This document shows, piece by piece, positions 5,892 through 62,622 of a stretch of 64,000 nt of DNA (position 1 is the stretch's first letter; each line of letters starts with the position of its first letter). Origin of the DNA: Psococerastis gibbosa (Eukaryota; Arthropoda; Insecta; Psocodea; Psocidae). The stretch spans positions 26,311,419-26,375,418 of the forward strand of contig OZ020486.1 in the NCBI GenBank assembly GCA_963971405.1, written 5' to 3'. The notes under the pieces were generated by a model. It had not been told where the DNA came from. It saw only the letters and a program-made list of their open reading frames with translations, and made no database searches. Made by a program: the position numbers and the translations under genes.

Positions 5892-6036
5892 AGGCGGGTA
5901 TTCCATATACGTACAACGTCAATGAAAATTATGAAATTGAAGGTGGTAGCAGAATTTTTAGTATGTCTTTAATGTCTGCTACCACCTTCAATTTCATAAT
6001 TTTCATTGACGTTGTACGTATGTGGAATGGGCACCT
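5892..6036. mobile_element. PAL element copy 1
   Basis: A near-perfect palindrome whose ends read AGGCGGGTATTCCA on the left and TGGAATGGGCACCT on the right. The core holds GGTGGTAGCAGA and its inverted partner TCTGCTACCACC around a short loop. It sits inside the right arm of the foldback element. Flanks are A/T only. Confidence 0.85.
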
Positions 6037-6271
6037 AAGTTTTATCTGCTCACTTGAGAATGACAATCTGTCGAAATCGGTAGTGACGATATTTTTATGT
6101 TTTTTATGTTTTCATGTGATATTTTACGAAGTTAACTCTCATTATATTGCCATATTTATTGCCCCCCCCCCCTGAAAAATATTGAAATGGTGACCATTCT
6201 CCAATGGTCAAAACGGAAACAATATCAATAATGCAATAATACTGAAAAAAACGTGGGATCATTTGCATTGG

Positions 6272-6442
6272 CCGTAGGGACGTGCCCAGGGGGGTGGTCC
6301 ATGGGGTCCGGACCCCCCCCCCCGAAATAAATTTTTGTATGTAAACCTGTATTGTTTGAAAAATTTACCCATTAGTTCATTAATAAATTACGTTAAAAAA
6401 AATTTGGACCCCCCCTGAAATCAAAACCTGAGCACGGCCACG
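6272..6442. mobile_element. hAT-like MITE
   Basis: The left end reads GGGACGTGCCCAGG followed by G and C runs; the right end is CCTGAGCACGGCCACG. It is flanked by TGCATTGG and AGCATTGG, an 8-bp target duplication with one mismatch. The same family occurs at 15335 and 45855. Contains an 11-13 base C tract near 6313. Confidence 0.75.
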
Positions 6443-6490
6443 AGCATTGGCATTGGGCATGGTCTAGGTCAAGGTCTAGATCCATTCTAT

Positions 6491-6684
6491 CGGGACATTA
6501 TTATTATTATTATTATGGTACGGACTCTGAATTTCACCCGAAAGGTTGTTGGTTCGAGTCCCACACTCGCTACATTTTATGGCCATGCTTTGGAGGGCAT
6601 GTAAAGCAGGTGGTCCGGGGCATAACTCCGCTTGGTTGGCTTAGTAATAGAAACTACAAAAATTCCTTATTTATTTATTTTATA
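6491..6684 (+). mobile_element. SINE-A copy
   Basis: A tRNA-derived SINE. It contains GGTACGGACTCTGA and a B-box GGTTCGAGTCC, then the family body (CATTTTATGGCCATGC, GGTTGGCTTAGTAATAG) and a TTTA-repeat tail. The A-box region is disrupted by an ATT repeat expansion (about 6497-6516). Other copies lie at 7027, 14860, 17365, 41259, 56424 and 60448. Confidence 0.75.
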
Positions 6685-6928
6685 TAAGGTAGGGGAACAA
6701 TTTAAAATTGTCACATATTTTGCGGAGGGAAGGGGGGGGGGGTCCGGGTCCCTTGGAGAGGAATTACGAAATACACTGTATGAGTTAAATAAGTTAATTA
6801 ACGTTAAAAATAACACTTCTATAATAACGTGTGTAATAGCTTATGTAGGTGTAACGCTATTTGTATCTATGACATGATTTCTTATTGCAATGCTAGTGGC
6901 GGGCGCCAAATTCACTCGTGGGCCCAGG

Positions 6929-7020
6929 CAGGGACGAATCCAGCCCATTTTTAGGTAGGTAGTGTTGGGTCATAATAGAATAAACTCATTTATTATTGAT
7001 TAAATTATAACGGAATAAAT
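6929..7020. mobile_element. Truncated hAT-like element end
   Basis: Starts CAGGGACGAATCCAGCCC, close to the left tip and following sequence of the complete element at 30476-30645 (including a TTGGGTCATAATAG-like stretch), but it runs into a SINE-A copy without a right end. Confidence 0.5.
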
Positions 7021-7026
7021 TTAATA

Positions 7027-7763
7027 TAAATAAATAAGTGTTGACTTCTTGTTCTATTTACTAAGCGGCTGAGCCAATCTAGTGGAGTTAGGGCTATAAA
7101 GCCCCCTCTTACACTCAACTAGGAATGCACGGGACCACCTGTTTTACATGCCCTCCGAAGTATAGGCTAGGGATCCAACTATACTACTGATATAATACTA
7201 GTATCGATACTTTTCATTCAATACTTGCAGGTATCGATACCTATTTGCTGGTATTCAATCAAATAATACCTACCATACAACTATAAACGTTTTCCCCCTT
7301 TTTTTTAATTTTCAATTTTCAAAATAGTTACCAACTTGCTGTATGAGAGTTCTTTCCTAAGCTATATATAGAGGTTGGCGTTGGACTAGATAATTTTGCG
7401 CGCCTGATTGTTTATAAATTGTTTTTTATATTGAATTTAAGTTATTTTTAGTCATATGCGTCTAACATTATAGTTAATAGTTGTTTTAGAATATTTATTT
7501 ATTTATTTAAAGAAGTTACCAGAATTTTTCAAAGGCCCCTTGATACCCCGGGTCCATGGATACACCCCTGTGCTTTGAAAATATTAAATGTGTGGCATTC
7601 GATTCGATACCAACACCTCGTGGTATCGATACTTTTCTTTCAATACAATACCAGTATCAATACCTACCATTCAATACCGGTATCGCTGCATTTGTTAAGA
7701 TTTGGATCCCTAAGTATGGCCCGAAAATGTAGCAAGTGTGAGACGGGTACCAGCAACAACCTT
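7027..7763 (-). mobile_element. SINE-A copy split by a hAT-like element
   Basis: Read on the minus strand, 7027-7167 is the 3' half of SINE-A with its TTTA tail and 7713-7763 continues it. The interruption is exactly the element at 7168-7712. The 5' head is displaced further, to 8598-8639, by a second insertion (7764-8597). Two nested insertions in one SINE give a relative age order. Confidence 0.75.
7168..7712. mobile_element. hAT-like non-autonomous element (TAGGGATCCAA ends)
   Basis: Left tip TAGGGATCCAA, right tip TTGGATCCCTA. Flanking AGTATAGGC and AGTATGGC are an imperfect ~8-bp duplication of SINE-A sequence. The interior is full of variants of TATCGATAC on both sides. A second copy with perfect target duplications is at 38130-38714. 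No transposase frame. Confidence 0.8.
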
Positions 7764-9975: not shown

Positions 9976-12005
9976 CTATTCTCCCGGATATATTATGTTT
10001 ATAAACTGTGGATTACTATGCAGAAATTGCTTAATTGTTTTACGGCACTTCTTATCTGGCATTAATGTTTTAAGATCAGTTGGTAGTGCGTTAAAAGCTA
10101 AAATCCCTAAATATGAGTGGGAATGTTTGTACGAGGCTGTTTTAAAAGTAGGTATTTGGAGATTGCGACTCTCACGCAGGCGGGTAATCCGGTTATGTTG
10201 GATGAATTCACTTTGTCCCTGGAGCGGCAGATTTTGCTGTAATCTATATGTTAATAATTGGAAGCAGTAAGATGATTTTATCGATGGTACCTTGAATTCG
10301 TTGTACAGTGTTAGGGATGGGTACAGGTAATGTTTTCTCAAACTGACTCTAATGACATGTCTTATAGAGATTTCTACAGGTTCTAGATGAGTTTGGTGGG
10401 CACCTCCCCAAGCCAATAAACTGTAGGATGCTATAGAGTTGACTAGCGAGAGATAAACTTGCCTCAGTAAATTAATGTCAAGTATTTGTCTGAGTAATTT
10501 AAATTTGTATATTGTCTTCCGTACCCGTTTAGCTGTAAGTGCAATGTGTTCAGCCCATTTCAAATGTTTGTCTATTGTCACCCCTAGGTATTTGTAGTTA
10601 TCTACTCTTTTTATAACATGACATGTGCAATCGGGGACGTTAGGGTCGCATAGTCTTTCATGTAACTTTATGGATGATCTTGCAGGTTGGCCCGTTGCGG
10701 TAAGGCTGAATGTGATGTATTCCGTCTTAGAGGTATTAAGAGTAAGCTGATTGTTAGCTAGCCATTCTTTAACTCTCTTAATTCCATTTCCTGCTTTAGT
10801 ATGCGTGTCGTCCCAGGTTTTGCCTGAAAAGTATAGAGTTGTATCATCAGCGAAACCCAGCAGAGTACCATCCAGATTCATTTCGAGCAGGCTATTTATA
10901 AAAATCAAGAATAACAGAGGACCCAGGACTGTACCTTGAGGGATCCCGCATGTCACAGTTGTTGTGCAACTTAGGGAAGACGTTTGATAACCGTTATTAG
11001 TTTTGGAAAGTCGTACGAATTGTTGCCTGTCTGTTAAAAAAGATCTTATTAGGTTGTTGGCGTGGCCTCTAATTCCGGCACGATTAAGTTTTTTAAGCAA
11101 TAACTCATGGGACACTCTGTCAAAAGCTTTTTCAAGGTCTATGAATATGCATACGGGGTGGTTTCCGTCGTCAAGATCCTTATATAGTAGGGATGAAAGT
11201 TTTGCAATCGCGTCTTGAGTACTACGTCCATTTCTGAATCCGTATTGGTTGTTTGATATAGGTAGTTTGTTGTTTCTAAGAAGTTGGTCAGTCTTGATTT
11301 GATAGTTTTCTCAATAAGTTTAGCAATGGTACTCGTAAGTGATATCGGTCTATAGTTAGACATGACAGTCTTTGGGCCTTTTTTATGAACAGGTATGACT
11401 TCAGCAATTTTAAGTACTTTAGGGAACACCGCATTTGTTAATGAGAGGTTTATGAGATGGGTGAGAGGTTCAAGTAAGTGTTCCGCATGCTTCTTAAAAA
11501 AGGAACTAGAGATTTTGTCAGGACCTGAAGATGATTTAGACTTTAACTGGGAAATATATTTCATTGTCTCTGTTTCATCAATAGGAGTTAAGAATATGGA
11601 TGTTGGATTGTTATTTGCCCCATCTTGGTAAGCTTGTGCTAACGGTAAATTTGCAGCAAGTCTTTCACCCACAGTGGAAAAGTAGTAATTGAAAGTATCG
11701 CACATCTCCTTTAGGTTACTGTTATTTATTGAGTGACCCCTACTATCAGTAATTTCTGTGATCTCGTGATGTATCTTCGTGTTATCAGTTATTTCGTTAA
11801 TAGTTTCCCAAGTTTTCTTTAAGTTGTTTTTATGTTCTTGTAGTTTTCCTTTGTAATAACAATTTTTTGTTTTAATTATTTCGCGTTTCACCCTATTATT
11901 ATTCTTTTTATAGTCTTGCCTCAGGGCTACGTTAGTTTGCTGACAATTTAGTTTTAGTTTCAGTTTGTCACGTTGCCTTATTAGTATTAGTAGATCATTA
12001 TTCAT
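9976..12005 (-). pseudogene. LINE ORF2: reverse transcriptase region
   Basis: Two frames carry the domain. 12005-11139 holds the RT N-terminal part (SSSGPDKISS, NYRPISLTSTIAKLIEK). 11115-9976 holds SHELLLKKLN, CGIPQGTVLGPLLFL, the active-site GFADDTTLYF, NTSKTEY and the C-terminal thumb-like region ending in LPTDLKTLMP. The frames join by a shift near 11250-11270, after which the DNA reads NNQYGFRNGRST and IDLEKAFDRVS. Both catalytic Asp motifs (IDLEKAFD and FADD) are recoverable, but the copy cannot encode an intact enzyme. Confidence 0.85.
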
Positions 12006-12102
12006 CCACGGTTTTAATTTTGTTACGCGATTAGAAATTTTTATGTGTTTCTTGCTGGCACCTATGTTGCTGTTGAGGGTATTTTGAAAACTTTGGGCGC
12101 AT

Positions 12103-12975
12103 TTATCTGTATCTGTTTCTTCCAGAACTGCCGCCCATGACTCGTTTTTTTAAAAGTTCACTAAGCCTATTATGGTCTATTACTTCTACGAGTTTGTTCC
12201 TTTTTTCGTACACTGGTTGCGAGTTGTTATGTAGTATTGAGAGAGCTGTGATATAGTGGTCTGTAATATTAGATTGTAGTATATGTCCCGAGCTATGATT
12301 GGTTTGTTTGGTAAAGATGTGGTCGATGCAGGACATAATAGTTCCGTCTACTCTAGTGTAGCAGTTGATAACCGAGTAAAAGCCTCTGGATGACAGTAAA
12401 TTCAGGTATTCTAAAGTAACGTTATCGAGGTCTGTGTCGAGTATGTTAATATTTACATCCCCTGCCAAGTGGATCATATCATTATTTTGGAAGCCAGATA
12501 GAAAAGTCGCTAAGCCGGAGATAAATGTAGCAACGTTCGTGGGTGGAGGTCTGTATATGGCCAGAATATTTTGGAGTTCGTTAGAGAATTTAAATGAGAT
12601 ATGAGCCGCACTACTACCGGGTATTCCGGCCGGTGAGCAGGTAGCCGAGAGGCTAGCCCGCGTGAAGATCGCAATTCCGTCACATTTGTTTATTTCACTT
12701 GAGTAAAGATAAGTCTGATAATTTGGTATAGTAAAATTTCTTTTCGGATTTATTTGGGAGTGCCATGTTTCAGTTAAAATTATAATATCAAAGAGAATGC
12801 CAGTACCGTTTAGAATTAGCAAAAATTCGTCGAAGTTAGCTCCTATGCTTCTAATATTCATTTGTATAATTTTTAAATGTCTATTACTGAAGAAATTGAT
12901 ATCAAAGTTATTTCTGCATACATTGGTTTCATTAGTATCTTCATTGTCGACTAAACTTAGGAACGTTCTGCTCAT
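12103..12975 (-). pseudogene. LINE ORF2: APE-type endonuclease region
   Basis: The frame contains QMNIRSIGANFDEF, LTETWHS, AIYRPPPT, LAGDVNINIL, SCIDHIF and ITDHYI, the ordered motifs of an apurinic-type endonuclease that nicks target DNA. All expected catalytic Asn/Glu/Asp/His positions are visible. The frame is lost in a run of seven A near 12144-12150 (minus strand). The following sequence continues in another frame into the RT region that begins at 12005, so this is one ORF2 broken by a one-base shift. Confidence 0.85.
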
Positions 12976-13523
12976 TGGTAGTCTCCTTCCATTACCTACG
13001 CCATTCCGTTGAGATTAAATTAAATACATACAGCTCAAGAGACTAATATGGATATTATGAGCTATTATTTGTTGGTCTATCATACATTTATGTAGCCTAT
13101 AACTAGTTTGAGAAACAAAGCATATTAAATAAGCTTATTAAATAATAAAAATACAATTTATCAAAAGTTTTATGCTTTATACTTTCTTACTTGGTAGATA
13201 GCCTAATTTACATAACCCACAATTTCGTTACATTGCACTAACTAAGAGTTGAAATAAAATAGATAGATACGTGAAAAATCATAGGTCTACCAGCAGTGCA
13301 GTCTACGTAGGTAGGTACATGTAAGGCTTATTTTCATGCAAATATTATAAGAAACTAATCCTAAAGTCATGACCAAAATGAGAACATACGAGGCTGTACA
13401 TAGTGATGAGCTAAACAGCAGAGATCAGAAATCAACTTGTGGTAGCCTGATCAGTTCAAATCCACTGTCTCTATAGGTTGGTAAATAGCGAGCTCGCGTT
13501 ATACGATATTAAGACTTATAAAT

Positions 13524-14239
13524 TTATTTTACTATATTATATGCAACCTGTTTGGTGGTGCTTCTTGTGTTTATAACCCTTGGTGGCTCTATAGGCATCT
13601 TTGCTTTTTCCCCTTCGATACGTGAAACTTCCTCTAAGCCTTGGAAAGTGGTTACTCGGTGTTTCGTGTTGGCTATTAGAATTACAATGGTGCCATCAAT
13701 AGTCCAAACGTTTTCGACTCCATGCCTTGTTCTAGCGTCTCGGAGGACATCCATATGTTGACGGGTAAGATGCTCGGTTACAGTGGTGCCTGTTCCTTTC
13801 AACTTCTTTTTATTTGAAAAACGTTGTTCCTTGGTGCATAGGCAGTAAATTTTATTACAACGGGTCTTGCTTTCCCAGAGGATTTCTTATTATAAATAGG
13901 CCCTATTCTGTGAACTCGGTCCAAGTCTTTTTCCTCCAGTTCACATACACCTTGGGTTTTTAAGAAGTCAATTGTCAATTTTTTTGTGTCTTCGTTCAGG
14001 GATTCCGGTAGACCATGTATCAATAAGTTATTTCGCCTGGAGTAAGACTCGAGGTTATCCATTCGGTTTGAAAGGTCAGACAAAATATCCTTTACCTTTA
14101 TAGAGAACTGGACGAATCTTTCTTCAATTGATGAGATCGCATCTTTGTCTACTGCATCACTTGAGTCACCTTTGGCCTTATCAAGGTCATAACGGATTAC
14201 ATTCATTTCACTAAGTAAAAGATCAATTTTATGCTCCAT
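13524..14239 (-). pseudogene. LINE ORF1 remnant
   Basis: 14239-13799 encodes a coiled-coil-like N-terminal part and the L1/CR1-type ORF1 segment NLESYSRRNNLLIHGLPE, followed by DRVHRIGP and KARPVVIKFTAYAPRN. The next frame (13802-13524) continues with GTGTTVTEHLTR, ARTRHGVENVWTIDG and a basic tail. The switch is in an A-rich run at about 13801-13815, a single-base shift. Family members bind RNA and chaperone retrotransposition. This copy is broken. Confidence 0.75.
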
Positions 14240-14270
14240 ACTTGCTGTTTTATAAGTTTAAATTCTGGTT

Positions 14271-17054: not shown

Positions 17055-18011
17055 CAGTGCCGGATTAACCCATGGGCACTTGGGGCACAGGCCCCAGGCC
17101 CCCCAGAAATTCCTAAAATTCCGCCCCCCCCCCCAACGAGATTTTTTTAAATATAAAAATATAAAAAAATTAAAAATTAAAAGTTTTGAAATTGGCGGGA
17201 AATTATGTGTTTTTTTTCATGCAATGCTGGTAGATTTATGAATTTTTCTAGAGGAGTTTGCACCAGAGGCGGACGAAGCGACCGGCACTGCGGGCCATTG
17301 CCTCATCTTTGGAAGGCAGTTATATTCTTTGCCTCTAAAATCTAGGTCTTACTGCACTAATAATGCATGTAAAGCAGGCGGTCCCGGGCTTTCCTAGTTG
17401 AGTGTAAGAGAGAGCTTTATAGCCCTAACACCGCTAGGTTGGCTTAGTAATAGAAACAATAAAAAGTCCTTATTTATTTATTTAAAACCCCACTATTTCA
17501 GCCCTATTTTTCAAACATTTTCTCCCGGGGGAGAGCCCCGGTACCCCCTGTTCACAATTGTATTAATTCCCTGTAATTTATAAACCTTATTCCTCTCAAA
17601 ACGTGTAAAACCTCAGTATTTCAGCCCTATTTTACAAAAATTACATTAATTGCCAGTAAAATCTCAAAAGTTACTGCTATCAAGATGCGTAAAATCAAAC
17701 TATTTCAGGTCTGTTTTCGCTAAACTTCTACCCCGTAGGAGACCCGTTGGCCCCCGTTCATATCCTCCGAACCGAACTAAGATCATTAATTTAAAAGCTG
17801 CGTACGTCCATGAGAATGGCTTTCCCCATTTTATACACTTTTATGAGAATAGGTGGAGGGGCACCAAATTATACATCGCCCCCTTCGAAAACCTATCGTT
17901 ACGCCACTGACAAGTGCCTCTCCTTTAATGAGGTCTGGCCCGCCTTTGGTTTGCACTCACGGCCCCCTCATATCTTGTACCCCCGGCCCCCCAGGGGTTA
18001 ATCCGGCACTG
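17055..18011. mobile_element. hAT-like non-autonomous element with 17-bp ends
   Basis: Ends are CAGTGCCGGATTAACCC and GGGTTAATCCGGCACTG, perfect inverted repeats. Flanks GTAAATAG and GTAGATAG are an 8-bp duplication with one mismatch. No transposase is present. A truncated SINE-A copy is nested inside. Confidence 0.88.
17365..17484 (+). mobile_element. 5'-truncated SINE-A nested in the hAT-like element
   Basis: Contains GCATGTAAAGCAGGCGG, GGTTGGCTTAGTAATAG and the TTTA tail, the 3' half of SINE-A, without the tRNA-like head. Confidence 0.75.
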
Positions 18012-21030: not shown

Positions 21031-21173
21031 AGGCGGGGTTTCCACATACGTCAATGGTCAATGAGAAATGTGAAATTGACGTTCTAGCAGACATTGAAGA
21101 CATACTAAAAATTCTGCTACCACGTCACAACCATATTTCCCATTGACCATTGACGTATGTGGAAACCCCGCCT
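21031..21173. mobile_element. PAL element copy 2
   Basis: Palindrome with ends AGGCGGGGTTTCCACATACG and its inverted partner; arms contain TCAATGGTCAATG. The core (CAGACATTGAAG on the left, CTGCTACCACG on the right) is slightly diverged. The same arm type occurs at 62479-62622. Confidence 0.88.
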
Positions 21174-21240: not shown

Positions 21241-21390
21241 AGGCGGCTATTCCACCGACGTCGATTTTGAATGTGAATGTGTCATGGCGTGGTAGCAGAC
21301 ATCATTAATAAGTCTCTGTCTCTCTGTGATGTCTGCTACCACGTGATGAAACATTCACATTCAAAATTGACGTCGGTGTAATAGCCGCCT
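21241..21390. mobile_element. PAL element copy 3 with TA flanks
   Basis: Ends AGGCGGCTATTCCACCGACG and the inverted partner; arms carry GATTTTGAATGTGAATG, unrelated to copy 2 arms, with the GTGGTAGCAGACAT core. Flanked by TA on both sides. Confidence 0.88.
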
Positions 21391-22654: not shown

Positions 22655-23552
22655 GAGAACCGGTCCGAGTTTACTCGAACATGCTTTCCAATTTATCAAC
22701 ATTAGTAGATAGAGAATATGAGTAATTTCATGGTAAATAATTTTCCAGTGGTTAAATTTCCGATATCTCGGGGGGGGGGGGGGAGGTTGAGGGGGGGAGG
22801 TTGAGGGGGGGGGGAGGTTGAGGGGGGGAGGTTGTCCACCTGACGTCACTGGAAATGAGATAAATTCTAGATAGGTCAGAACAACACATTAATTACCACA
22901 CAGCAATAATGGCAGGGCACGCTACGCATTTGAGCGCGAATTTTCTATCATTTTTTCAAAAAATAATTTTTTGTGCAAAACCAAATATTTTTTTGGGAAA
23001 GCAACCTATCCGGTTTCGTTACTCAATTTAACACCTAAAACATGCCTGAAGGTAGAAATCATCGATAGAAAGGTTTCGCAGAAAAATTATTTTTTATTCA
23101 TTTTTCATTAAAATTTAGTTATTTTTATTTTTTTACCCCCAGAAGCAAACTATCAACGGGCAAGCGACCCACCGCATTTTGTCAGCATTAATAACGACTA
23201 CAATATATGAGAATTTAAAAGCAATCGTTGGAGCCGTTTTTGAGAAATAAATTTTTTAGCCTTTTTTTTGGAGTTTTTTGAGAATAAAACCCACCGAAAT
23301 TGAGTTAGCCCCAAATAAAAAAATTGATCCCGAGGTATAATTTTTGTGAACCTACATGCCGAATTTCATCAAAATCAACCGATTAGTTTGCCCGGAAATC
23401 GATGCACAGACAGACAGACAGAGAGACATTTCGTAAAAACGACTTTTTTGGGTTCCTGGGACCTCAAAACGTGTAAATCCGTTGAAATCTCGGAATCGAA
23501 AATTTCGACCATCACAAAGCTTTCCTTATACTACGTATAAATTGGAAAGCGA
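22655..23552 (+). repeat. REP-3 copy A
   Basis: About 900 bp nearly identical in order to 36744-37595. Begins AACCGGTCCGAGT, then GCTTTCCAATTTAT at 22683-22696, whose exact inverse ATAAATTGGAAAGC ends the copy at 23537-23550. The 3' end also forms a hairpin (GCTTTCC..GTATAA..GGAAAGC). Has a GACAGACA tract near 23406. No open frame. Class unknown. Confidence 0.75.
22770..22836 (+). repeat. G-rich minisatellite inside REP-3
   Basis: Roughly four units of a G7-9 run plus AGGTTGA. The sister copy at 36857 has one G run only, so the repeat expanded after the copies separated. Potential G-quadruplex former. Confidence 0.8.
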
Positions 23553-23674
23553 CAACGGGGCTTAGCACCCACTAAATACCTAACTTAAATAACTTCCAGG
23601 GTAAATTCAATCAAGTGCATGCGACGACAGCCTGATAATGTATAGGGGCTACAAAATTTTCCCACAGGAATTGC

Positions 23675-27598: not shown

Positions 27599-27656
27599 AG
27601 GCACTTATTCCACCGACGTCAATAGTTCACTATTGACGTCGGTGGAATAGTCGCCT
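27599..27656. mobile_element. PAL element copy 4, minimal
   Basis: Only 58 bp: tip AGGCACTTATTCCACCGACG, an arm TCAATAG, and the inverted partner. Flanked by TA on both sides. It lacks the GTGGTAGCAGA core and is the smallest member. Confidence 0.85.
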
Positions 27657-27824: not shown

Positions 27825-28004
27825 AGGCGCCTATTCCATCTGTCAATAATCCGTCATTTGTGCATCAATAATAAGTCTCTACCATATTATAACTTAATTT
27901 ATACAAGGTTAGTTAAGTATCCACATAATAGTCTCCTCAAAACAAACATCTCATCAATTTTTGATCCACAAATGACGGATTATTGACAGATAGAATAGCC
28001 GCCT
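27825..28004. mobile_element. PAL element copy 5
   Basis: Tip AGGCGCCTATTCCATCTGTC with arms containing AATCCGTCATTTGTG and the inverse at 27966-27985. No GTGGTAGCAGA core. Arm type shared with 36318-36439. Confidence 0.8.
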
Positions 28005-36317: not shown

Positions 36318-36439
36318 AGGTGGCTATTCCACTTGTCAATATTCCATCATTTGTGCATAAATAATTGATGAGATGACATAGAGTAAAGAAAAAATCTCAT
36401 CAATTATTGAAGAAAAATTGACAAGTGGAATAGCCGCCT
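36318..36439. mobile_element. PAL element copy 7
   Basis: Tip AGGTGGCTATTCCACTTGTC with partner GACAAGTGGAATAGCCGCCT. The arm contains CCATCATTTGTGCATAAAT as in copy 5 and ATTGATGAGAT/ATCTCATCAAT nearer the loop. The right arm has a small deletion. Confidence 0.85.
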
Positions 36440-36743: not shown

Positions 36744-37595
36744 GAACCGGTCCGAGTTCACTCGAACATGCTTTCCAATTTATCAAAATTATTAGATAGA
36801 GAAAATTAGTAATTTTATAGCAAATATTTTTCCTATGGTTAAATTTCCGATATCTCGGGGGGGGGGGGGCGGTTGTCCAGTCCACCTGACGTCACTGGAA
36901 GTGAGGTAAATTCTCGATAGGTCAAACAAACACATTAATTACCACACAGCAATAATGGCAGGGCATGCAATGCATTTGAGCGCGAATTTTCTATCATTTT
37001 TTTCAAAAAATAATTTTTTGGGCAAAACCAAATATTTTTTTTGGGAAAGCAACCTATCCGGTTTCGTTACTCAATTTAACACCTAAAACATGCTTGAAGG
37101 TAGAAATCATCGATAGAAAGGTGTCGCATTTTTTAGTCATTTTTTCATTAAAATTTAGTTATTTTTATTTTTTTACCCCCAGAAGCAAACTATCAAGGGG
37201 CAAGCGACCCCCCGCATTTTGTCAACATTAATAACGACTACAATCTACGAGAATTTAAAAGAAATCGTTGCAGCCGTTTTTGAAAAATAATTTTTTTAGA
37301 CGTTTTTTTGGAGTTTTTTGAAAATATAACCCCCCCAAATTGAGTTAGCCCAAAAAAAAAAAATGGTCCCGAGGTATGATTTTTGTAAACCTACATGCCA
37401 AATTTCACTCAAATCCACTGAGTAGTTTGCCCGGAAATCGACGAACAGACAGACAGACCGACAGACAGACATTTTGTAAAAACCACTTTTTTGGGTTCCT
37501 GGGACCTCAAAACGTGTAAATCCGTTGAAATCTCGGAATCGAATATTTCGACCATCACAAAGCTTTCCTTATACTACGTATAAATTGGAAAGCAA
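36744..37595 (+). repeat. REP-3 copy B
   Basis: Collinear with copy A over nearly its whole length. GCTTTCCAATTTAT at 36770-36783 and its inverse at 37580-37593. Has one G11 run instead of a minisatellite and a GACAGACA tract near 37445. Confidence 0.78.
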
Positions 37596-38129
37596 AAACG
37601 TTGGCTATGCAAAACTGTGTCTGTAATGTTGACGAGAATTCCCCAAACTTGTATAATCAAAGCTTTTAAAACATTACTCAAATCGTTTAAAGTCAACGTC
37701 ACTGCTGTTTTATATCGGCCTATAATTTTAAATAAAAAGTCTATACCTACCTACCCGTTCTGGGTAATAACCCCAAAAACCAGTTGAATTTTCGTGGTGA
37801 GTTCCTATGTTTTAAACGAGTAAAAAGTCATCAAATTTATAAAAAATGAAAAAAAGGCAAGACACCTTCTTGGTAATTACAATAGTGGATGTGATAACGC
37901 TGGAGCAGGTGCATCCAAGGTACAGGTATAAACACGTCTAACTCCAGCCAAGAAGATGTCTACGCTTGAATAAATAAACTACTTAACCCAATAGTATTTG
38001 CACATTACTATTGGACTACCCGTACAAGGGTTTGAAATTTTTTCAGCATAGCTATTTGGTAGATATGTACTGTATATTCTGCTGGTATTGGATTTTCCAA
38101 AATGTCAATGTATCAATATGTCTACGAAT
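37596..38129. other. No gene recognised
   Basis: No repeats or coding recognised. Confidence 0.4.
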
Positions 38130-41258: not shown

Positions 41259-41392
41259 CAGGACATGTAGCGTAGTGGTACGGACTCTGACTTTCACACC
41301 GAAAGGTTGTGGGTTCGAGTCTCACACTGGCTACATTTTCTGGCCATACTTCGGAGGGCATGTAAAACAGGTGGTCCCGGGCCTTTCTAGTT
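41259..41392 (+). mobile_element. SINE-A copy with best-preserved tRNA-like head
   Basis: A-box TAGCGTAGTGG at 41268-41278 and B-box GGTTCGAGTCT at 41312-41322, about 33 bases apart, as in tRNA genes. The body continues to GGTGGTCCCGGGCC and stops before the 3' half, so it is 3'-truncated. Confidence 0.75.
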
Positions 41393-48213: not shown

Positions 48214-48316
48214 GCTTGACGTGCTCTTACAAGTTACAACTAGTATTCAGTTTTATTAACAGTTATTCAGTAGCCTATTTATTCATTTAAATTCATATTA
48301 TTCATCTTTAAATACT

Positions 48317-49171
48317 ATGTCGAAAAGTTGTGGTGACCCCTCATGTAAATCGAAATATGAGGATGGTGTAAAATGTTTCGGTTGTGGAAATAGTTATCAT
48401 TTTGAGTGCGCGGGAGTAGCAGAGTCCACCCAACGCAGAAAAGCCCAAGATTCTAGGGAGAAATGGAGGTGTAAGCAGTTTTGTAGGGCTCCACAGCAGC
48501 AAGACAAGCAGGAAGAGGACTTCGATAAAATCATTAAAGGTTTGTCAAACCCAGATCTGAAACTAATTTTTTCCTTCCTCAACAAAAAAATGGACTCAGT
48601 GCTTCATTCAATCGAGTTCCTTGGAAAGAAATATGATGAATTGCAGGAAAAGGTCAGCCAGCATGACCAGAAATTTAAGGCAGTTGATAAGGCTTTATCA
48701 TTGCATGATGTCGAAATTCAAGAATTGAAGCAGTCTTGCTTAAATGATTTTATAGAAATCCATGGCATTGATCCGGTTAAAGGAGAGACTAACAATGAAT
48801 TATTCAGCAAAGTTATATCTAAAATAACTGGAGAAGTAGGGGTTAGCGTGTCGAAAAACGACTTACTCTCTGTGTCTCGAATTGCGACAAAGAATAATAC
48901 CACCGCTCCAATCAAAGTCCGTGTGAATGACCCTAACCTTAGAAATGAGCTTTTGCTAAAAAGTAAAACTCGCCCAAACCCTAAAGCGATCTTCGTGTAT
49001 GAACATATGACCAAATTCTACAAGATGATATTCTGGGAAGCGAGGAAGAAGGCTAAGCAACTTAACTACAAATTTGTTTGGTTTAAAAATGGAAGGGTCT
49101 TCACAAAAAAAGACGAAAAAAGTGTCCCCAAGAGAATTCGATCCTTGGAGGATATATACAAATTACAATAA
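48317..49171 (+). CDS. LINE ORF1 protein with PHD-type zinc finger
   Basis: 284 residues. The N-terminal C4HC3 set is C5, C10, C20, C23, H28, C31, C52 and C56, with W50 two residues before C52, as in PHD fingers. Residues ~80-140 are charged and heptad-like (KKYDELQEKVSQHDQKFKAV), a probable coiled coil for oligomerisation. The C-terminal half contains FIEIHGIDP and SVSRIATKNNTTAPIKVRV, similar to the nucleic-acid-binding part of LINE ORF1 proteins. It likely coats the LINE RNA. ORF2 follows after 74 bp in the same direction. No break was seen. The clade is uncertain; PHD-bearing ORF1s are known in several CR1- and jockey-like groups. Confidence 0.85.
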   Translation: MSKSCGDPSCKSKYEDGVKCFGCGNSYHFECAGVAESTQRRKAQDSREKWRCKQFCRAPQQQDKQEEDFDKIIKGLSNPDLKLIFSFLNKKMDSVLHSIEFLGKKYDELQEKVSQHDQKFKAVDKALSLHDVEIQELKQSCLNDFIEIHGIDPVKGETNNELFSKVISKITGEVGVSVSKNDLLSVSRIATKNNTTAPIKVRVNDPNLRNELLLKSKTRPNPKAIFVYEHMTKFYKMIFWEARKKAKQLNYKFVWFKNGRVFTKKDEKSVPKRIRSLEDIYKLQ

Positions 49172-49245
49172 TTTCACTCCAATAGGATGCAGAAGCGCGA
49201 GTTCTGTAGCCTACTTTTGTGTGAGTGTTGTGAACTTAATATGAT

Positions 49246-52200
49246 ATGCCAATTTTTATGGATAAGAATTTTTACTTTATTACTGATCCAGAATCAGACC
49301 TGATAAAGGAAGAAGTGTACGATACTGTTCCAGAATGTTTTCACCGGCAAGCAGGAAATTTACTCGCCAAGCCGCACATTGCCAGATCTGGAATGGGCCT
49401 ACATGTCTCGAAACGAGACACAAACACCTTTTCAATACTGTCCATTAATATACGAAAAATCCGTACAAACTGGGATAGATTTAAATTGTATTTCAATAAT
49501 TTTTTATTTCTTATTGACTGCATTGTTTTTGTAGAGGTAGACGAGAGAAAGGAGATATTGGAAATGTTTAATTTGGTTGGATACAATAAGTATTTCTGGC
49601 TTCGCGACAGAAATGGAGGTGGTATATGTGTTTATCTTAGGGATATTTATCCGTGTCACGTACTGCAATGTCTTACAGATAGTTTTGAAAACGTAACTCT
49701 TGAAGTAAAAATGGCAAACTTTAGCTTACATGTTTTAGCGATTTACCGGCCTCCTGAAAAATCTAAATCTAGTTTTATTACAGAGCTAGATACGTTTTTG
49801 AGTAAATTGCCGTATGGAAATGCACTTTTATGTGGGGATATAAACATCGATCTTAAAGATGGTAAGAGTGTGACTGAAGAATACTGTGACATACTTTCAC
49901 TAAAGGGCTTCCTGATGGGAATAAGTAGTAATTTTACACGTGAGGCATTTCTTGTGGACCATTGGGTGAAATCCTGTCTGGACCATGTGTTTATCAGGTT
50001 TATTCACCAAAAGTCCCGAGCCGATACATATGTTATCCGAAATATGGTGGCTGATCACTTCACGGTTGGGGCCACTCTAAAGTTTCCTCTACATTGTACT
50101 TCTAGCCAGAATGACCAGGCCTCTTGTACCATATTTGATAGACAAAAATTTGATGATATTCTAAAGGCTAGTAAACAAGATCTTGGATCGTTATTACTCT
50201 CTAATGACTGCTTATATATTTATGACCAACTACATTCTATTCTTTCTAAGTGTAAACAAGCATCGCAAAAATCTGTTACCTTTAAAAGGAGAAGGTACAC
50301 GCCTAGGAAAGATTGGATGACTAAAGAATTATTAGATAAATTGCAGGAAAGAGATGTTATGGCTAAATTAAATTTATCTGAACCCCATCAGAGAGAATTG
50401 CATAACAAATTTAGAAACCAAGTAACAAAGGAAATTAGGAAGGCTAAGGCTGCCTTTTATAAAGAAAAATTTACTTCGGTGAAAAATAGCATCAAGGATA
50501 CTTGGGCTGAAATTAATAAAATAAGAGGAAAAAACCCTAGACAAGACACAGATACCTTTATTGAAAAAAAATTTTTGAGGGATGATACGTCTCTCAGTCA
50601 AATCGCCAATCATTTCTGCGAAACATTTTCTAGTGGTGTTAACGGTATAATTCATGAATGTCATGTTGATACCCTTCCTGAATCCGATTTAGTTGCAAAT
50701 ATACTTTCCTCAAGGTTTGAAATTGTAGATCATATAAGCAAAGACGAAATTAAAAAAATTTTGAACAACATGAAAAAAAATCAGAGCGCCGGGATAGATG
50801 GTATTTGCCTTAGCGATATATTAAGAAATATTAATATTCTCTTACCTGTTATTACGAAATTTGTTAATGCCAGTCTAAATACTGGTATTATCCCGGACAC
50901 ACTTAAAACTGCAATTGTAAAGCCAATTTTTAAAAGTGGTGCCCGAAATAACTACTCAAACTATCGACCTATTTCTATTTTGTGTTGTTTGGAAAAACTA
51001 CTTGAAAAAGTAATAGCTTCAAGATTAACAATTTACCTCGAGTCAAACAATATCATCCCTCGTGAGCAATTCGGTTTCAGGAAAGGGTTGTCTACAAATC
51101 ACCTTTTGCAAGAATTTGCAAACTATGTCAACGGTAACCTGAACAGAAATTTCTTTGTATTAGTAATTTATGTGGATTTTAAAAAAGCATTTGACACACT
51201 GAACTTCAACGGCATTATAACGGAACTATTCAACATCGGAGTCAGTTCTAAACTGACAAACTGGTTTAAAAATTATTTTAAAGACAGAAAATTGGTTGTA
51301 AAATTAAAGAATTTTTTGAGTACAGCAGCTAAACAGCAATCAGGTGTGCCCCAGGGTTCAATTTTAGGTCCACTTCTCTATTTAATCTTCGTGCGGTCTA
51401 TGGCGAATATATTTAAACATTGTAAAATTCTTCAATTTGCTGACGACACCGTCATTATGACGCAATGCAAAGATATTGATGAAGGGTTAAAAGTATTAAA
51501 TGCTGAATTTTATTGTTTTCTTCAGTGGGCGCATGATCATGGCCTAATATTAAATGAAAAGAAAACCAATGTAATGGTGATTCGTCCACCGAAAGTTGAT
51601 TATGTGAATATAAAAATTAAATTTCATGACCAGAGGTGTCTGCATCTAAATCAAAAGAAATCGTTTGATTCCATAACTTGTGCATGTGTAACGACGTTGA
51701 ACCAAGTTAATGTACAGACATACTTAGGGATTGTTATTGATGATCGCTTTAGGTGGTCTCACCATGTTGAATTTATATATAGAAAAGTGCGATCTTGTGT
51801 TTTTGCTGTGTCGTGTCTTAGAGGCACCAACAAAAAAATTCAGCTGTTCGCTTACCGAGCTCTAGTTCAGTCAATTTTGAGGTACGGAATAGTAGCTTGG
51901 GGCTCGGCAGCCGAATGTTATACCAAGAGAATTAGGAACCTGCAGGTCTCTCTCTTAAAAACAATTGACAATAATCTACACAAGGAAACAAACAGCAATT
52001 TTTTCTTTAAGAAATATCGTGTATTGCCTATAACTTTATTACATACTCAAGCCATTTTATTGTTGAATTATTTTAACTCAAAATATAAGACCATAAATCC
52101 TTCTAGGTACAGTCGCAGAGCTGGAACAACCTACAAACATTATATTGAGCTGACTCATAATAATATGTATGGCTATCATGAACTTAAGGTGGCAATTCCC

Positions 52201-52308
52201 CGAGTATTTAATTTGATTCCCGTCAGTCTTCTAGAGTTGGATAGCTACAATGCTGTTAAGCGAAATCTAGGGGACTGGCTGATAAATTGTTTAAATGATG
52301 GCGATTAA
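49246..52308 (+). CDS. LINE ORF2: endonuclease-reverse transcriptase polyprotein
   Basis: 1020 residues, uninterrupted. An APE-type endonuclease spans about 60-285: N68 in LSINIRK, E97 in FVEVDE, AIYRPP at 165-170, GDIN at 197-200, SCLDHVF at 243-249 and ADH at 269-271. The usual ETW motif is replaced by EVD, keeping the Glu. The reverse transcriptase spans about 500-780: NQSAGIDGI, NYRPISILCCLEKLLEK, EQFGFRKGLST, D644 in VDFKKAFD, GVPQGSILGPLLY and FADD at 731-734. A C-terminal region of about 240 residues (TYLGIVIDDRFRW, SILRYGIVAWG) follows; no RNase H. It nicks target DNA and primes cDNA synthesis there. An out-of-frame ATG lies just upstream of the chosen start. The N-terminal 55 residues are not a recognised domain. 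Confidence 0.93.
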   Translation: MPIFMDKNFYFITDPESDLIKEEVYDTVPECFHRQAGNLLAKPHIARSGMGLHVSKRDTNTFSILSINIRKIRTNWDRFKLYFNNFLFLIDCIVFVEVDERKEILEMFNLVGYNKYFWLRDRNGGGICVYLRDIYPCHVLQCLTDSFENVTLEVKMANFSLHVLAIYRPPEKSKSSFITELDTFLSKLPYGNALLCGDINIDLKDGKSVTEEYCDILSLKGFLMGISSNFTREAFLVDHWVKSCLDHVFIRFIHQKSRADTYVIRNMVADHFTVGATLKFPLHCTSSQNDQASCTIFDRQKFDDILKASKQDLGSLLLSNDCLYIYDQLHSILSKCKQASQKSVTFKRRRYTPRKDWMTKELLDKLQERDVMAKLNLSEPHQRELHNKFRNQVTKEIRKAKAAFYKEKFTSVKNSIKDTWAEINKIRGKNPRQDTDTFIEKKFLRDDTSLSQIANHFCETFSSGVNGIIHECHVDTLPESDLVANILSSRFEIVDHISKDEIKKILNNMKKNQSAGIDGICLSDILRNINILLPVITKFVNASLNTGIIPDTLKTAIVKPIFKSGARNNYSNYRPISILCCLEKLLEKVIASRLTIYLESNNIIPREQFGFRKGLSTNHLLQEFANYVNGNLNRNFFVLVIYVDFKKAFDTLNFNGIITELFNIGVSSKLTNWFKNYFKDRKLVVKLKNFLSTAAKQQSGVPQGSILGPLLYLIFVRSMANIFKHCKILQFADDTVIMTQCKDIDEGLKVLNAEFYCFLQWAHDHGLILNEKKTNVMVIRPPKVDYVNIKIKFHDQRCLHLNQKKSFDSITCACVTTLNQVNVQTYLGIVIDDRFRWSHHVEFIYRKVRSCVFAVSCLRGTNKKIQLFAYRALVQSILRYGIVAWGSAAECYTKRIRNLQVSLLKTIDNNLHKETNSNFFFKKYRVLPITLLHTQAILLLNYFNSKYKTINPSRYSRRAGTTYKHYIELTHNNMYGYHELKVAIPRVFNLIPVSLLELDSYNAVKRNLGDWLINCLNDGD

Positions 52309-53022: not shown

Positions 53023-53407
53023 AGGCGCCCATTCCACCGACCGGCTAGGGCTATTTACAAAAACAGTGACGTGGTAGCAGACATTCAAGACTTAGGCGGG
53101 GTTTCCACCGACCTCGCATTGCAGAATTGACGGAAATGTTTATTTTCCTCTATGCCATAGTTAAAATTGATCAATGATCATACAGTAAAATCACAAACAA
53201 ACAAACTAAAATTAAAAAATGGCGTCATGGGATATGTTAAGTACAAATATTTTAATAGATTTCTATAAAAAGAAAAATTCTAATTTCCGTCAATGTCATT
53301 TGCATTCTGCAATGCGAGGTCGGTGGAAACGCCACCTAAGTCTTGAATGTCTGCTACCACGTCACCGTTTTTGTAAATAGCCCTAGCCGGTCGGTGGAAT
53401 GGCACCT
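53023..53407. mobile_element. PAL element copy 8 (outer), split by copy 9
   Basis: Tip AGGCGCCCATTCCACCGACC with partner at 53388-53407; arms GGCTAGGGCTATTTACAAAAA and core ACGTGGTAGCAGACATTCAA. Removing the inner element restores a perfect palindrome centred on CAAGACTTAAGTCTTG. Confidence 0.9.
53095..53336. mobile_element. PAL element copy 9 (inner), inserted at the dyad of copy 8
   Basis: Tip GGCGGGGTTTCCACCGACC with partner GGTCGGTGGAAACGCCACC; arms contain TCGCATTGCAGAAT and its inverse. Flanked by TA on each side (53093-53094 and 53337-53338), the central TA of the outer palindrome. The loop is longer and AT-rich. Confidence 0.9.
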
Positions 53408-56423: not shown

Positions 56424-56626
56424 CTAGATGTCAGAACGGGCACTGACTTTTGCCCGAAAGAATGTTGGTTGGAGTCCCACAGACGCTACATTTTCTGGTC
56501 ATGATTTGGAGGAGATGTAAAGAAGGCGGTGCCGGGTCTTCCTAGTTGAGGGTAAGAGAGGGTTTTAAAGCCCTAACTCCAATAGGTTGGCTTCGTAATA
56601 GAACAAAAGTCATTATTTATTTTTAA
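56424..56626 (+). mobile_element. SINE-A copy, diverged
   Basis: B-box-like GGTTGGAGTCCCAC, ACATTTTCTGGTCATG, CTTCCTAGTTGAGGGTAAG, GGTTGGCTTCGTAATAG and a TTTA-like tail in family order. Confidence 0.7.
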
Positions 56627-57603
56627 TATATCAGTTATCTATTTAATTATTATTCACCACATACACTATCTGTAGCAAAGTGGGAAGAGCGTCAGGAAAA
56701 ATATGCATCGAACTAAAAAAGTAAATACAGCAGTTGCTACCCTTTTACGTTAATCATACCAATTGCCACAACTGCGTACAGTAACAAATAAAAAATAATT
56801 TATGTACTTTTTAGTTCCATCAAAAATATATTCTGCTTAATACATCTCATAAGAAATGTCCACAAAAAAGCTATGATCAACGAAACAGGCTCTGCATTCT
56901 AATATGAGTAAATTTAGGCAAAGAGCTCCATAGTTATTACTCGTCAGCTAATAATACCTGGCTCATCTTATAATAGATTCAATGCCCATCAATATTATTT
57001 TCACACCTTTTTCTCAGAATCAATGATGAGTCCTATTGAAGACAACCCTATGTAGCGTTGAGTAGGATTTAGAAATGATTTAAATCACAAAACCATTAAT
57101 TATTTAAAAAATAACCCTTTCTGTCTTGCCCGAAGTTTTGATTAACTTCTGTAATCACGGGCGGGCCAGACAAATATTCTAGAAATGCAGCTGCTTCAAA
57201 ACTTGTCCAAACTGCAATCGTTTTTGCATTTAATACGCACCCAGTGCTTCTTGTATTGTAATTCATGCAATTTAATTTTGATACTGAAATTGCTCTCCAC
57301 CCCTTTTCGATGAGTACTTGCGCAAGTTTGGAAAACATCTATTTTGTCAGTATACCGTTAAAATCGGTACCTGCCTACTGTTTATCCAGATTTCAGTGTT
57401 TTTTAATTGAGTGTATGGTAGGTAAGCTCTTGCATTCGCTATTACGGTGTATTGTATGTATGTACATATGCATACAGTGCCTTTACCTATTTCTTTTCAA
57501 GAATCATTGGAGGAGGGAGTTAGGATATCACGGATGTGACCACTATGTTAGCTGAGATGCGGTTTCTCTTCGAATTTTTTATAATAAATTCATGAATGCC
57601 AAC
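56627..57603. other. No gene recognised
   Basis: A minus-strand open frame at 57096-57338 shows no family motif. Otherwise AT-rich sequence. Confidence 0.35.
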
Positions 57604-59315: not shown

Positions 59316-59353
59316 AAAGAACCGGTACGAGTGAACCCGTACACGCTTTCCTA

Positions 59354-59482
59354 CGGCGGGGTTTCCATTGATCTCGTTTTTGAATGTGAGCGAGATATTG
59401 ACGTGGTAGCAGTCAGTCTAAAAATGTCTGCTACCACGTCAATATCTCACGTTCAAAAACGAGGTCAATGGAAACCCCACCT
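59354..59482. mobile_element. PAL element copy 10
   Basis: Tip CGGCGGGGTTTCCATTGATC, arms TTTTTGAATGTGAGCG, core ACGTGGTAGCAG with the inverted CTGCTACCACGTCAATATC. TA flanks. Nested in REP-3. Confidence 0.87.
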
Positions 59483-59510
59483 ATTCATCAATTAGTACAA
59501 GTATAGGTAC

Positions 59511-59746: not shown

Positions 59747-60447
59747 GGTACGGCGATAGTTCCATGGTAAATAATTGTCCTGAGGTAAATATAGGCTGGC
59801 TATAGCTTTTCCCTATCCTAATTCTAAAGCACTGGATTGGTCGATGTGTCGATAAAATAATTCGGTACTAACCAATAATAATGAAATGGCTTGCACTAAG
59901 GCTCGGATTACCAATAATATCTTCAAAACCAAACCCTTGCTTTGGATGGAACATATAAATGTACGTAACCTGAATGAATGTTTGAGAAAATGTGTTGCCC
60001 AAACACCAATACCTACATAAATGGGCTATATGATTGGTAGACGACGTTTTTTCGTAAGATACTTATATTGGTACCTAGGCGGCTAGGCAGTAGGCAGGCA
60101 CTAAAAATTGGTCTTACTACTGCGCTGCTAACGTCGAATTATAAAAAGAAGCCCGACTAAATGATGTCGAGCAGGAAGGGCTCATAATATTCGATAGTAG
60201 TGGTACAATTGAGTCAGTTTTCCAGGCACTCTCGAGCTCGGCACGCGTCTTAGGCTCCGCTAGGGACAGGACGTGTCTCCGCACAATATCGTACAGATCA
60301 CGGACGATTTTGGACCAAGTGCGAATTCTATGTTAAATGACGTCTATGTCAGAACTCAATTACCAAATTTCAGTAACAAGCAATTCTACCAATTTTATGT
60401 CATTGGATGAAGAATGGGACTTAAGCAACTGTTACCCTACCAAACAC

Positions 60448-60640
60448 GTAGACTTACTGACTTCGCAAGGTTGTTGGTTTGAGTCCCAAACATGCTACAT
60501 TTTCGGGCTATGCTTCGAGGGCATGTAAAGCAGGCGGTCCCGGGCCTTCCTAGTTGAGTGTAAGAGAGGGCTTTATAGCCCTAACTCCGCTAGGTTGGCT
60601 TAGTGGTAAAACAAAAGTCATTATTTATTTATTTATTATA
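60448..60640 (+). mobile_element. SINE-A copy
   Basis: B-box-like GGTTTGAGTCCCA, TTTTCGGGCTATGCTTCG, GGCGGTCCCGGGCC, GGTTGGCTTAGTGG and a TTTA tail; the best example of the complete 3' half. Confidence 0.75.
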
Positions 60641-61879
60641 TACAGTAGGTATGTATATGCGAGGGGTGCTTCATATTCTCTAAGAATGAACTCCCAAGAA
60701 ACGCCCTGCAAACTAATTGCTTAATAACGGCCTATTCACAATGTTGAAATAAAATTATCCACTAATCTACAGGTAGTTAAAGGTGTTATCCAAGTTAGGA
60801 CACATCGTGAGTGGGACGTGGGTTAACGTGCTAAATAGAAGCAAGCCGCATTATCAAATTGTCTTTACGTTTATTAAAACTTATGACATAGTACAATTAT
60901 TTTACAAAAAAGACTTACGAGTAGCAGGTTCACTGTGTTTTTAACCAACGGCTGCATTCCGTACTTATATCGATCGCAGTGCCGTTTAAGACGAGTGTTA
61001 TCTTGACTTAACACACATAACTTACTAGGCATAACTCGATAACTTCAACATTGTGAAAACACTCAATGCAAGCTAAGTTAAAATGATTGTATGTTGCTTT
61101 GCTACAAATTTGGGAGGGGCCATGGAATCATTAAGCCAGTGTAACGCAGGTAGGCTAAGTATGTATAACGTCGAACACCGAAAGTGCGTCCCCTCCACTA
61201 GTGAGAAGGTTACAAATTTGAATTTGAACTTGCAAACTTGGAGAAAAGAAACCTCCGTGTGTTCCACGTTCCAAAAGAGCTCCCTTAAAAGAATGACGGT
61301 TGATACTTGCCAATGAAGTGACTGACTTTGTGGAGAGCCACAGACTATCAAAAACCTAGCCTATATAAAATTTAATAAATAAATTAAATAAATCAAATTT
61401 ATATAAAAGCCCAAATGTCCCGTGAATAACCCAAAGACTATCTACTCGTAAATTATTATTGATCTATTTTTTCTACTTAGTTTCTTTGAAACGGTTCTTA
61501 GTGGATATAACTCCCGGGCCTATTAGAGCGGTTCGTTGTTTGACTCGGTACCATTATGTTTTAGAATATATCAAGGAATGCCTGACCATCCAGTTAATAA
61601 TGCCCTTCGTTGGGGACAAAAAATCCAGTTTTTAATGAGTTATCTGCACGATATCAGGAAAAGGCTATAAAGTGAACAGACCTAAAATTAGGAACCATGG
61701 TATCGGCTATAGACAAAATAATTTCAAAATGCCTTGAGGTGGTCCAGACCTCTCACTGTCTTTGGTATCATTGATTACGAGTAGTAACTGATTTCCTTTT
61801 GTATGCATATTTGATATTTTTTACCTATAGGCGAAGCATTCGGTTTTCAATAGAAACCAAAAAATTTGAAACTTCCAGC
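60641..61879. other. No gene recognised
   Basis: Opposed frames at 61083-61316 (+) and 61073-61351 (-) show no family motif. Otherwise unrecognised. Confidence 0.4.
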
Positions 61880-61950
61880 CAAGGCCGTAGCCAGAGGAGG
61901 GGTCTAGAGGTTCTGGACCCCCCCCCCCCTAAATATTTGCAGGGTACACT
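61880..61950. mobile_element. Truncated hAT-like MITE end
   Basis: CAAGGCCGTAGCCAGAGG and a C13 run, the left end of the family complete at 26356-26535. No right end. Confidence 0.55.
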
Positions 61951-62233
61951 AGATAGAATGGAGTTATATGTTCTTGCGACCAATTCATATTACATATAGT
62001 ATATATTGTACTGTAACCGGTACATACAGGAACCTTGTCACTATAGGTAGCCATTTCTTCAGTACGTACCTAATCGTAGTTTAGTAGAAATACGGTCGAT
62101 TCTAGTCTATTATTTCAAATTTTAATGAACGAAGGATGCCATTAAAAGTCGGTTTACTCAGGTGATGTGAACCATTCACCAAATAAATAATACAACAGGA
62201 TAAATATTTTTATGTTGGGTTATTTGCTCACTT

Positions 62234-62396
62234 AGGTGCCCATTCCACATACGTACAACGTCAACGAAAAATTGAAAAATGACGTCAAAATGACGTAAAT
62301 TGACGTGGTAGCAGAATTTTTAGTATGTCTTTAATGTCTGCTAAAACGTCATTTTTCAATTTTTCGTTGACGATTGAAGTATGTGGAATACCCCCC
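62234..62396. mobile_element. PAL element copy 11
   Basis: Tip AGGTGCCCATTCCACATACG, arms ACAACGTCAACGAAAAATTG as in copy 1, a small duplication of GACGTAAA-type sequence, core TGGTAGCAGAATT. The right arm tip is slightly eroded. Confidence 0.82.
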
Positions 62397-62478
62397 TATG
62401 GAATATAGTGATTTAGGTTTACAGTACAATAGTATAAACATTATTATTTCGTGGAGTCAATGCATTGTTATTCAAGTT

Positions 62479-62622
62479 AGGCGGGGTTTCCACATACGTC
62501 AATGGTCAATGGTAAATATGGTTTTGACGTGGTAGCAGACATTTTTAGTGTGTCTTTAATGTCTGCTAAAACGTCAATTTCATATTTCTCATTGACCATT
62601 GACGCATGTGGAAACCCCGCCT
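62479..62622. mobile_element. PAL element copy 12
   Basis: Tip AGGCGGGGTTTCCACATACG, arms TCAATGGTCAATGG, core TGACGTGGTAGCAGACATT. Almost the same length and arms as copy 2 at 21031-21173, suggesting recent common origin. Confidence 0.88.

Follow-up and report, generated by a model that had tools for sequence, protein, structure and literature searches.

Our study of a 64 kb stretch of the Psococerastis gibbosa genome (C3:26311419-26375418, contig OZ020486.1, hereafter the window; the genome comprises 68 contigs totalling 409 Mb) revealed a family of short palindromic repeats that are likely to be non-autonomous miniature inverted-repeat transposable elements (MITEs), PIF/Harbinger-like in target and tip, whose arms are probably homogenised by hairpin-based copying of one arm onto the other. 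An earlier note on this DNA had proposed that the arms take on new sequence and yet stay self-complementary, with snap-back copying or arm-to-arm gene conversion among the causes it considered; arm-to-arm copying is now the best explanation of the quartet counts of arm sites and of a composite element that occurs in three forms, X/X, X/Y and Y/Y. The comparison drew on the window (W) and on stretches sampled elsewhere in the genome (L001-L051).

Eleven self-complementary elements, 56-383 bp long, were present in the window (56-387 bp over the whole set of window and sampled copies). The earlier note had counted 12 copies, and self-complementarity was confirmed at the places it listed, but the number falls to 11 since its entries 53023 and 53095 form a single 383 bp composite. 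From each end inward the order is the tip GG[C/T]GNNNNTTCCA, a mid-zone, in most copies a core GTGGTAGCAGA, and an asymmetric loop, which exists in a few versions, each recurring among copies. The tip adjoins a TA-containing flank, and the pattern TA-N0-1-GG[CT]-N4-5-TTCCA matched 21 times in the window, with 19 of these matches lying at element ends; 100 Markov-1 controls averaged 1.55 matches and never exceeded 5. The tip as first written, AGGCGGNNTTCCAC, was not distinctive, with 4 matches at up to two mismatches against 2.07 expected, a count reached by 14 of 100 shuffles. The core, allowing one mismatch, was found 12 times in the window against 0.65 expected (0 of 100 shuffles reached 12) and in 8 of the listed copies, as the earlier note had it. 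It was recognised in neither arm of 4 of the 34 elements (W 27600, W 27826, W 36319 and L008:4687). Core-less copies exist, and movement without the core does not follow from their existence.

Individually, the element at 5893-6035 (143 bp, flanks TAA/TAA) has mid-zones identical at 36 of 36 positions between unequal tips, GGCGGGTA and GGTGCCCA, and sits within a larger inverted-repeat element of ~1.4 kb (window ~4709-6120). The elements at 21032-21172 (141 bp, flanks TAA/TAA) and 62480-62621 (142 bp, TTA/TAA, inverted) have their unequal arms in common. Inverted flanks are also found at 21242-21389 (148 bp, TAA/TTA), 36319-36438 (120 bp, no core, TTA/TAA) and 27600-27655 (56 bp, no core, nearly loop-less, TAA/TTA). 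The element at 27826-28003 (178 bp, no core, flanks TCA/TTA) has the arm type of 36319-36438, and the remaining simple elements lie at 34703-34842 (140 bp, flanks ATA/AAT), 59355-59481 (127 bp, TAC/TAT) and 62235-62396 (162 bp, TTA/TAT), the last having a left arm that is mosaic for two subtypes and contains an insertion of 21 nt. The composite occupies 53024-53406 (flanks TTA/TTA) and its inner element, the former separate copy 53095, occupies 53095-53336.

The two arms of an element change together. Arms were compared in 44 entries with both arms read, in which 3 elements were entered twice; 13 of the 34 elements were dropped because at least one of their arms had no match to the core pattern, L001, L025 and L031 were excluded, and 23 arm pairs from the arm listing were added, 3 of which are the elements of L002, L003 and L004. 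Identity between the arms of one copy had a median of 0.97, fell no lower than 0.58 and was at least 0.95 in 26 of the 44 entries. All 946 entry pairs, binned by best identity, were then scored for concerted sites (C), at which the arms agree inside each copy and the copies differ, and for arm-specific differences common to both copies (O). C against O was 1 against 25 at identities of at least 0.95 (161 pairs), 225 against 22 at 0.85-0.95 (106 pairs), 380 against 1 at 0.70-0.85 (60 pairs) and 10,149 against 23 below 0.70 (619 pairs). Despite the mutual dependence of these pair counts, C lies so far above O that the arms cannot have evolved separately. Within young subfamilies inherited arm differences persist: 21031 and 62479 have an identical pair of unequal arms, with 6 arm-specific sites in common and 0 concerted, and here the matching of arms described in the earlier note, correct for the median copy and for the concerted sites, does not apply. 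Homogenisation thus takes longer than a burst but less time than the divergence of subfamilies. Across 34 elements, mismatches between arms were found at 44 % for tip base 3, 12 % for tip bases 4-8, 2 % in TTCCA, 5 % at positions 14-30, 9 % at 31-46, 8 % in the core and 22 % adjoining the loop.

These counts also bear on a reading in which each subfamily was founded as a new palindrome by snap-back replication or template switching and then multiplied, with no continuing repair between arms. Young subfamilies are indeed nearly perfect (5893-type mid-zones are identical in W:5893, L006, L002 and L003), close copies simply inherit their arm differences (C 1, O 25 at identities of at least 0.95), and 27600-27655 is nearly loop-less. 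A fresh snap-back would yield symmetry, yet most elements retain an asymmetric loop and unequal tips, and C outnumbers O by 225:22 already at 0.85-0.95 identity, so that we consider repeated re-founding unlikely.

The composite at 53024-53406 provides a second line of evidence for arm-to-arm copying. It has two tips per arm and recurred in 4 of the 20 stretches sampled (L011, L015, L020 and L022), and an initial reading of 53095 as a separate insertion into 53023 was revised on finding that the composite recurs elsewhere in the genome. Its interior gave 40 scored matches among 385 candidates, 7 of them at 100 % including the window's own and a second, on C34, with identical flanks. On each side of the X/X form (the window, L011, L015, L020 and others) the last letters of the outer half, ahead of the inner tip, are CATTCAAGACTTA. 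In the Y/Y form, L051, the same interior is preceded by TATCATTAGTAA or TATCATTTATAA on its two sides. Some simple elements carry the uninterrupted loop CATCATTAATAAGTCTTGAATG, in which X and Y stand at opposite sides, so that a single insertion of the inner element into this loop would yield an X/Y composite. Precisely this predicted form was found in L050, and by eye its outer arms are intermediate between those of the window composite and L051. Y junctions were found at 394 + 384 = 778 places genome-wide (control 0), and the Y/Y form as 10 facing exact pairs among the matches listed (all on C1, single matches being known from one side; control 0). We take the three forms as direct evidence that copying has overwritten one half of the element with the other, and has done so in both directions, unless the X/Y form arose later by recombination between the symmetric ones. 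A small contig, L025 (C34:44109-44284), repeats the window composite with identical flanks and is probably an unplaced duplicate of the window locus.

Crossing-over or conversion between copies paired in inverted orientation could also equalise arms and turn X/Y into X/X and Y/Y, which would then be its reciprocal products. The mosaic copies 62235-62396 and L035 are in keeping with such exchange, as is an outer-arm marker, AACAG/AACGG, which is flipped relative to the composite interior in L030, L034, L036 and L011, as if the arm or the interior had been inverted; a precedent has been proposed for Galileo (PMC3573991). Exchange of this kind would often leave single foreign arms, yet at least 0.95 identity within a copy was seen in 26 of 44 entries, and we regard it as an improbable general explanation of the matched arms.

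The copying within a copy that we favour would proceed as follows. Recognition by a putative transposase would probably involve the tip GGYGNNNNTTCCA together with, for most copies, a core GTGGTAGCAGA lying at a near-fixed distance from it, the 32-36 nt in between being free to drift. The copy would fold into a hairpin in which one arm is occasionally copied onto the other, the simplest route being mismatch repair of the stem in an extruded hairpin or cruciform. A change in a single arm would be either erased or fixed in both arms, and, burst after burst, subfamilies would acquire new arm sequences by drift without losing the palindrome. Loops would stay asymmetric because unpaired bases escape stem repair. 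Stem repair would thereby explain the concerted arms, the unequal tips with matching inner arms of 5893-6035, the mismatch profile and the inverted flanks described below. Mismatch repair of the hairpin stem appears to be the best mechanism for the copying, with exchange between copies a possible one.

All 8 elements folded gave strong hairpins (RNA parameters, z -11.4 to -19.4), which would hold for any palindrome. The possibility that the palindromes are hairpin RNA loci kept for small-RNA processing draws on these 8 of 8 folds, but since all palindromes fold, and target duplications and empty sites mark mobile DNA, it appears extremely improbable. An Rfam scan of the window gave no match at gathering scores.

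The earlier note had described at least five unrelated arm types, with arm sequence that seemed replaceable, and had named a divergence series as the finding that would speak against them; such a series was largely what we found. In the window (numbered by the note's start positions), the mid-zones of 5892, 21031, 34703, 62234 and 62479 form one arm type (z 6.3 to 14.9), 27825 and 36318 form a second, and 21241 and 59354 are alike at z ~5. Genome-wide, intermediates join the types. Among 58 distinct mid-zones from 100 listed arms, 56 joined at an identity of 0.70, the 99.9 % point of shuffled pairs being 0.63. Among 16 thinned representatives, 15 linked at 0.65 and 10 at 0.70, where 60 end-keeping shuffles reached at most 5 and at most 2, respectively. 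The outsider of the chain was the sequence beginning CGGCCAATTTGC. By this comparison the arm types appear to be the ends of a divergence series and not freely replaceable cassettes, and as self-complementarity is kept along the series, concerted change of the arms is still required. The mid-zone of 53023 was unlike the others in the window (z ≤2.3 with 53095, ≤1.5 with the other ten), which, with the single representative outside the chain at 0.65, could suggest separate palindromic families whose tips are alike through convergence or chance. The tip, the core at a fixed gap, the target and the loop versions are all common property, and intermediate arms exist; separate families are accordingly very unlikely.

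These shared features extend to a large number of copies. A search with nhmmer using ten arms as queries found both arms in 10 of the 11 window elements (the 56 bp element at 27600 was missed), no additional copy in the window and 0 matches in reversed sequence. In twenty 10 kb stretches of C3 it found 15 elements, three through one arm alone. The window, with 11 elements per 64 kb against 15 per 200 kb in the sampled stretches, is therefore enriched in elements, and by crude scaling from one contig the genome may hold ~30,000 copies. An exact facing core pair occurred at 2,912 places genome-wide (control 0), and TTCCAC followed by the core at 10,166 + 10,300 = 20,466 exact arms (control 0). 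Among the matches listed, the gap from TTCCAC to the core was 32-36 nt in 98 of 100 arms, with 20-48 allowed. This constancy suggests a putative two-part binding site with a free spacer. A core-plus-loop pattern gave 0 matches in IMG/VR viral contigs.

Empty-site relatives in the window were available for two elements. That of 5893-6035, supplied by the opposite end of the ~1.4 kb inverted-repeat element in which it lies, was an exact fit to a TAA duplication. That of 59355-59481, at ~23681, fits TA plus one extra base, or TAT with one base changed. Flanking 3-mers were compared over 36 elements, including L050 and L051; L001 (no right tip) and L025 and L031 (the window's flanks or the window itself) were excluded, and the incomplete or less regular copies L013, L015:135, L020:3130, L020:9889 and L023:9054 stood outside the set. 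The two triplets were identical in 16 elements (TTA or TAA in 12, ATA in 2, TGA in 1 and AAT in 1), exact inversions of each other (TTA/TAA or TAA/TTA) in 15, at 8:7 by direction, and otherwise in 5. A 2-bp duplication of TA alone was our first reading and was revised after this comparison. A Tc1/mariner or Stowaway-like TA duplication with an optional A or T would fit the mixtures of TTA and TAA, though less well the identical ATA, TGA and AAT triplets, and these off-consensus cases favour a 3-bp duplication as in PIF/Harbinger.

The inverted triplets are unusual and may be a trace of repair following insertion. At the foot of a hairpin stem, TTA/TTA would leave a single T.T mismatch with a base pair on either side of it, whose repair would yield TTA/TAA or TAA/TTA depending on the direction. 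A post hoc comparison found inverted flanks to go with a symmetric third tip base (10:3 against 6:12, p = 0.029), with no association over all eight tip bases (12:9 against 4:6, p = 0.46), and stem repair as the origin of the inversions is offered as a suggestion. It is possible, though we advance it tentatively, that the hairpin drives the evolution of the element through stem repair in place, which would extend as far as the central base of the flanking duplication and change TTA/TTA to TTA/TAA. A family of palindromic MITEs would in that case be a self-correcting lineage, able to drift only in both arms at once, and inverted target duplications would be a readable counter of repair events.

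Several points weigh against arm-to-arm copying by stem repair as set out above. No copying event was observed directly, and snap-back re-founding could account for those young palindromes that are most perfect. The X/Y copies could be recombinants of X/X and Y/Y, and the two-subtype mosaics (62235-62396 and L035) call for exchange between copies. The association of tip and flank that stem repair predicts is weak, and at an identity of 0.60 the chain of arm types was no better than in shuffles (15 against up to 14). To these are added the dependence among the entry pairs, the origin of all blindly sampled stretches from one contig, the demand for exact TTCCAC and core in the arm sample from C1, and the result of the transposase search reported below.

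In comparison with known systems, the elements most resemble the PIF/Harbinger MITEs (Tourist-like, mPing) and PHIS, with which they have in common 3-bp triplets, mostly TTA/TAA, GG tips, short length, lack of coding capacity and high copy number (PMC4482050; PMC4561436). The first base of a PIF/Harbinger terminal inverted repeat is usually A or G (PMC4482050), and the tips here begin GG. The preference of mPing for TTA/TAA targets (PMC4561436) offers a parallel. With regard to the 3-bp TWA duplication of PIF/Harbinger, 12 of 36 elements here have identical TTA or TAA triplets. Unlike PIF/Harbinger MITEs, these elements are palindromes over their whole length, with concerted arms and inverted triplets in 15 of 36, and no transposase with the same tip was present in the loci read. 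NuwaII, a PHIS element, prefers the target C-TNA-G and ends in GG (PMC4482050); the GG ends are alike, and here C precedes the triplet more often than any other base (31 of 72 ends), but again the loci read held no same-tip transposase. ISL2EU duplicates AT within A-AT-T (PMC4482050), while the flanks here are of the TTA/TAA type.

Among foldback elements, Galileo of the Drosophila P superfamily has 7-bp duplications, inverted repeats of at least 600 bp and a P-type transposase (PMC3573991; PMC4168063), and proposals made for it include arm-to-arm repair or conversion, the recruitment of sequence from its interior, and chimaeric copies whose duplications do not match (PMC3573991). Long inverted ends and the proposal of arm copying or exchange link it to the present elements, which differ in their 56-387 bp length, 3-bp triplets and three-state evidence of copying. 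No 7-bp duplication was seen, identical flank repeats being at most 3 over 6 flanking bases in 34 elements (L026, L033 and L035 were mis-anchored). In the Tetris foldback of Drosophila virilis the terminal repeats of one element group together and are possibly homogenised (PMC4079207), although its ends contain tandem 220 bp repeats in contrast to the short hairpin MITE described here. Large sex-chromosome palindromes have their sequence kept by gene conversion (PMC7023750); those are single and large, whereas these are short, mobile and number in the thousands. The open-access literature searched held no prior description of arm copying in three states for short MITEs. Arm conversion having already been proposed for Galileo, the novelty, to the extent of that search, appears to lie in the setting of short hairpins, in the scale and in the evidence from three states. 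Copying of this kind would explain why subfamilies of short palindromic MITEs look unrelated and yet form near-perfect hairpins, and is a warning against classifying such repeats by arm sequence. The X/Y, X/X and Y/Y composites, together with identical and inverted flanks, offer a countable natural system for repair and conversion in short palindromes.

The earlier note had also advised a search for an autonomous element with the same tip, and the few loci read yielded none. Profile matches in the genome numbered 150 scored for DDE_Tnp_4 and 113 scored for MADF, and no tip-bounded transposase was present among 3 DDE_Tnp_4 loci and 8 ends beside MADF matches. The composite contains a short frame (~53218-53292, + strand), translated by eye as MASWDMLSTNILIDFYKKKNSNF, which had no Pfam match at E up to 10 and is perhaps a remnant of a larger element; that it is the start of a MADF protein is our assumption and is unsupported. 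A pattern for an intact continuation of this frame gave 8 matches (control 1). The best candidate, L051, was rejected as an autonomous element, being a composite that carries a further half-element. In L037 (from 3133 onwards) a related hairpin element is flanked by a DDE_Tnp_4 frame and by another frame; we take the latter to be YqaJ exonuclease-like and a frame upstream to be THAP-like, presumably an ISL2EU-like make-up. DDE_Tnp_4 matches cluster at C3:25.54-25.84 Mb (five) and at C14:20.36-20.85 Mb (six).

The window contains further repeats and frames. A dispersed repeat is present in two copies ~14 kb apart (22834-23557 and 36880-37600), 74-95 % alike by segment. Another repeat, with a GGTTCGAGTCC box, occurs at 6538-6680, 17358-17483, 41299-41382, 56454-56631 and 60463-60639; we assume the box to be tRNA-like and the repeat perhaps a short interspersed nuclear element. 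Frames at 9976-14257 (- strand) and 48260-52308 (+ strand) presumably encode a LINE-like reverse transcriptase with associated frames; the second set is close to intact and includes a frame of 1022 aa. A 306-aa frame at 2612-3532 (- strand) has what we take to be a resemblance to achaete-scute bHLH proteins.

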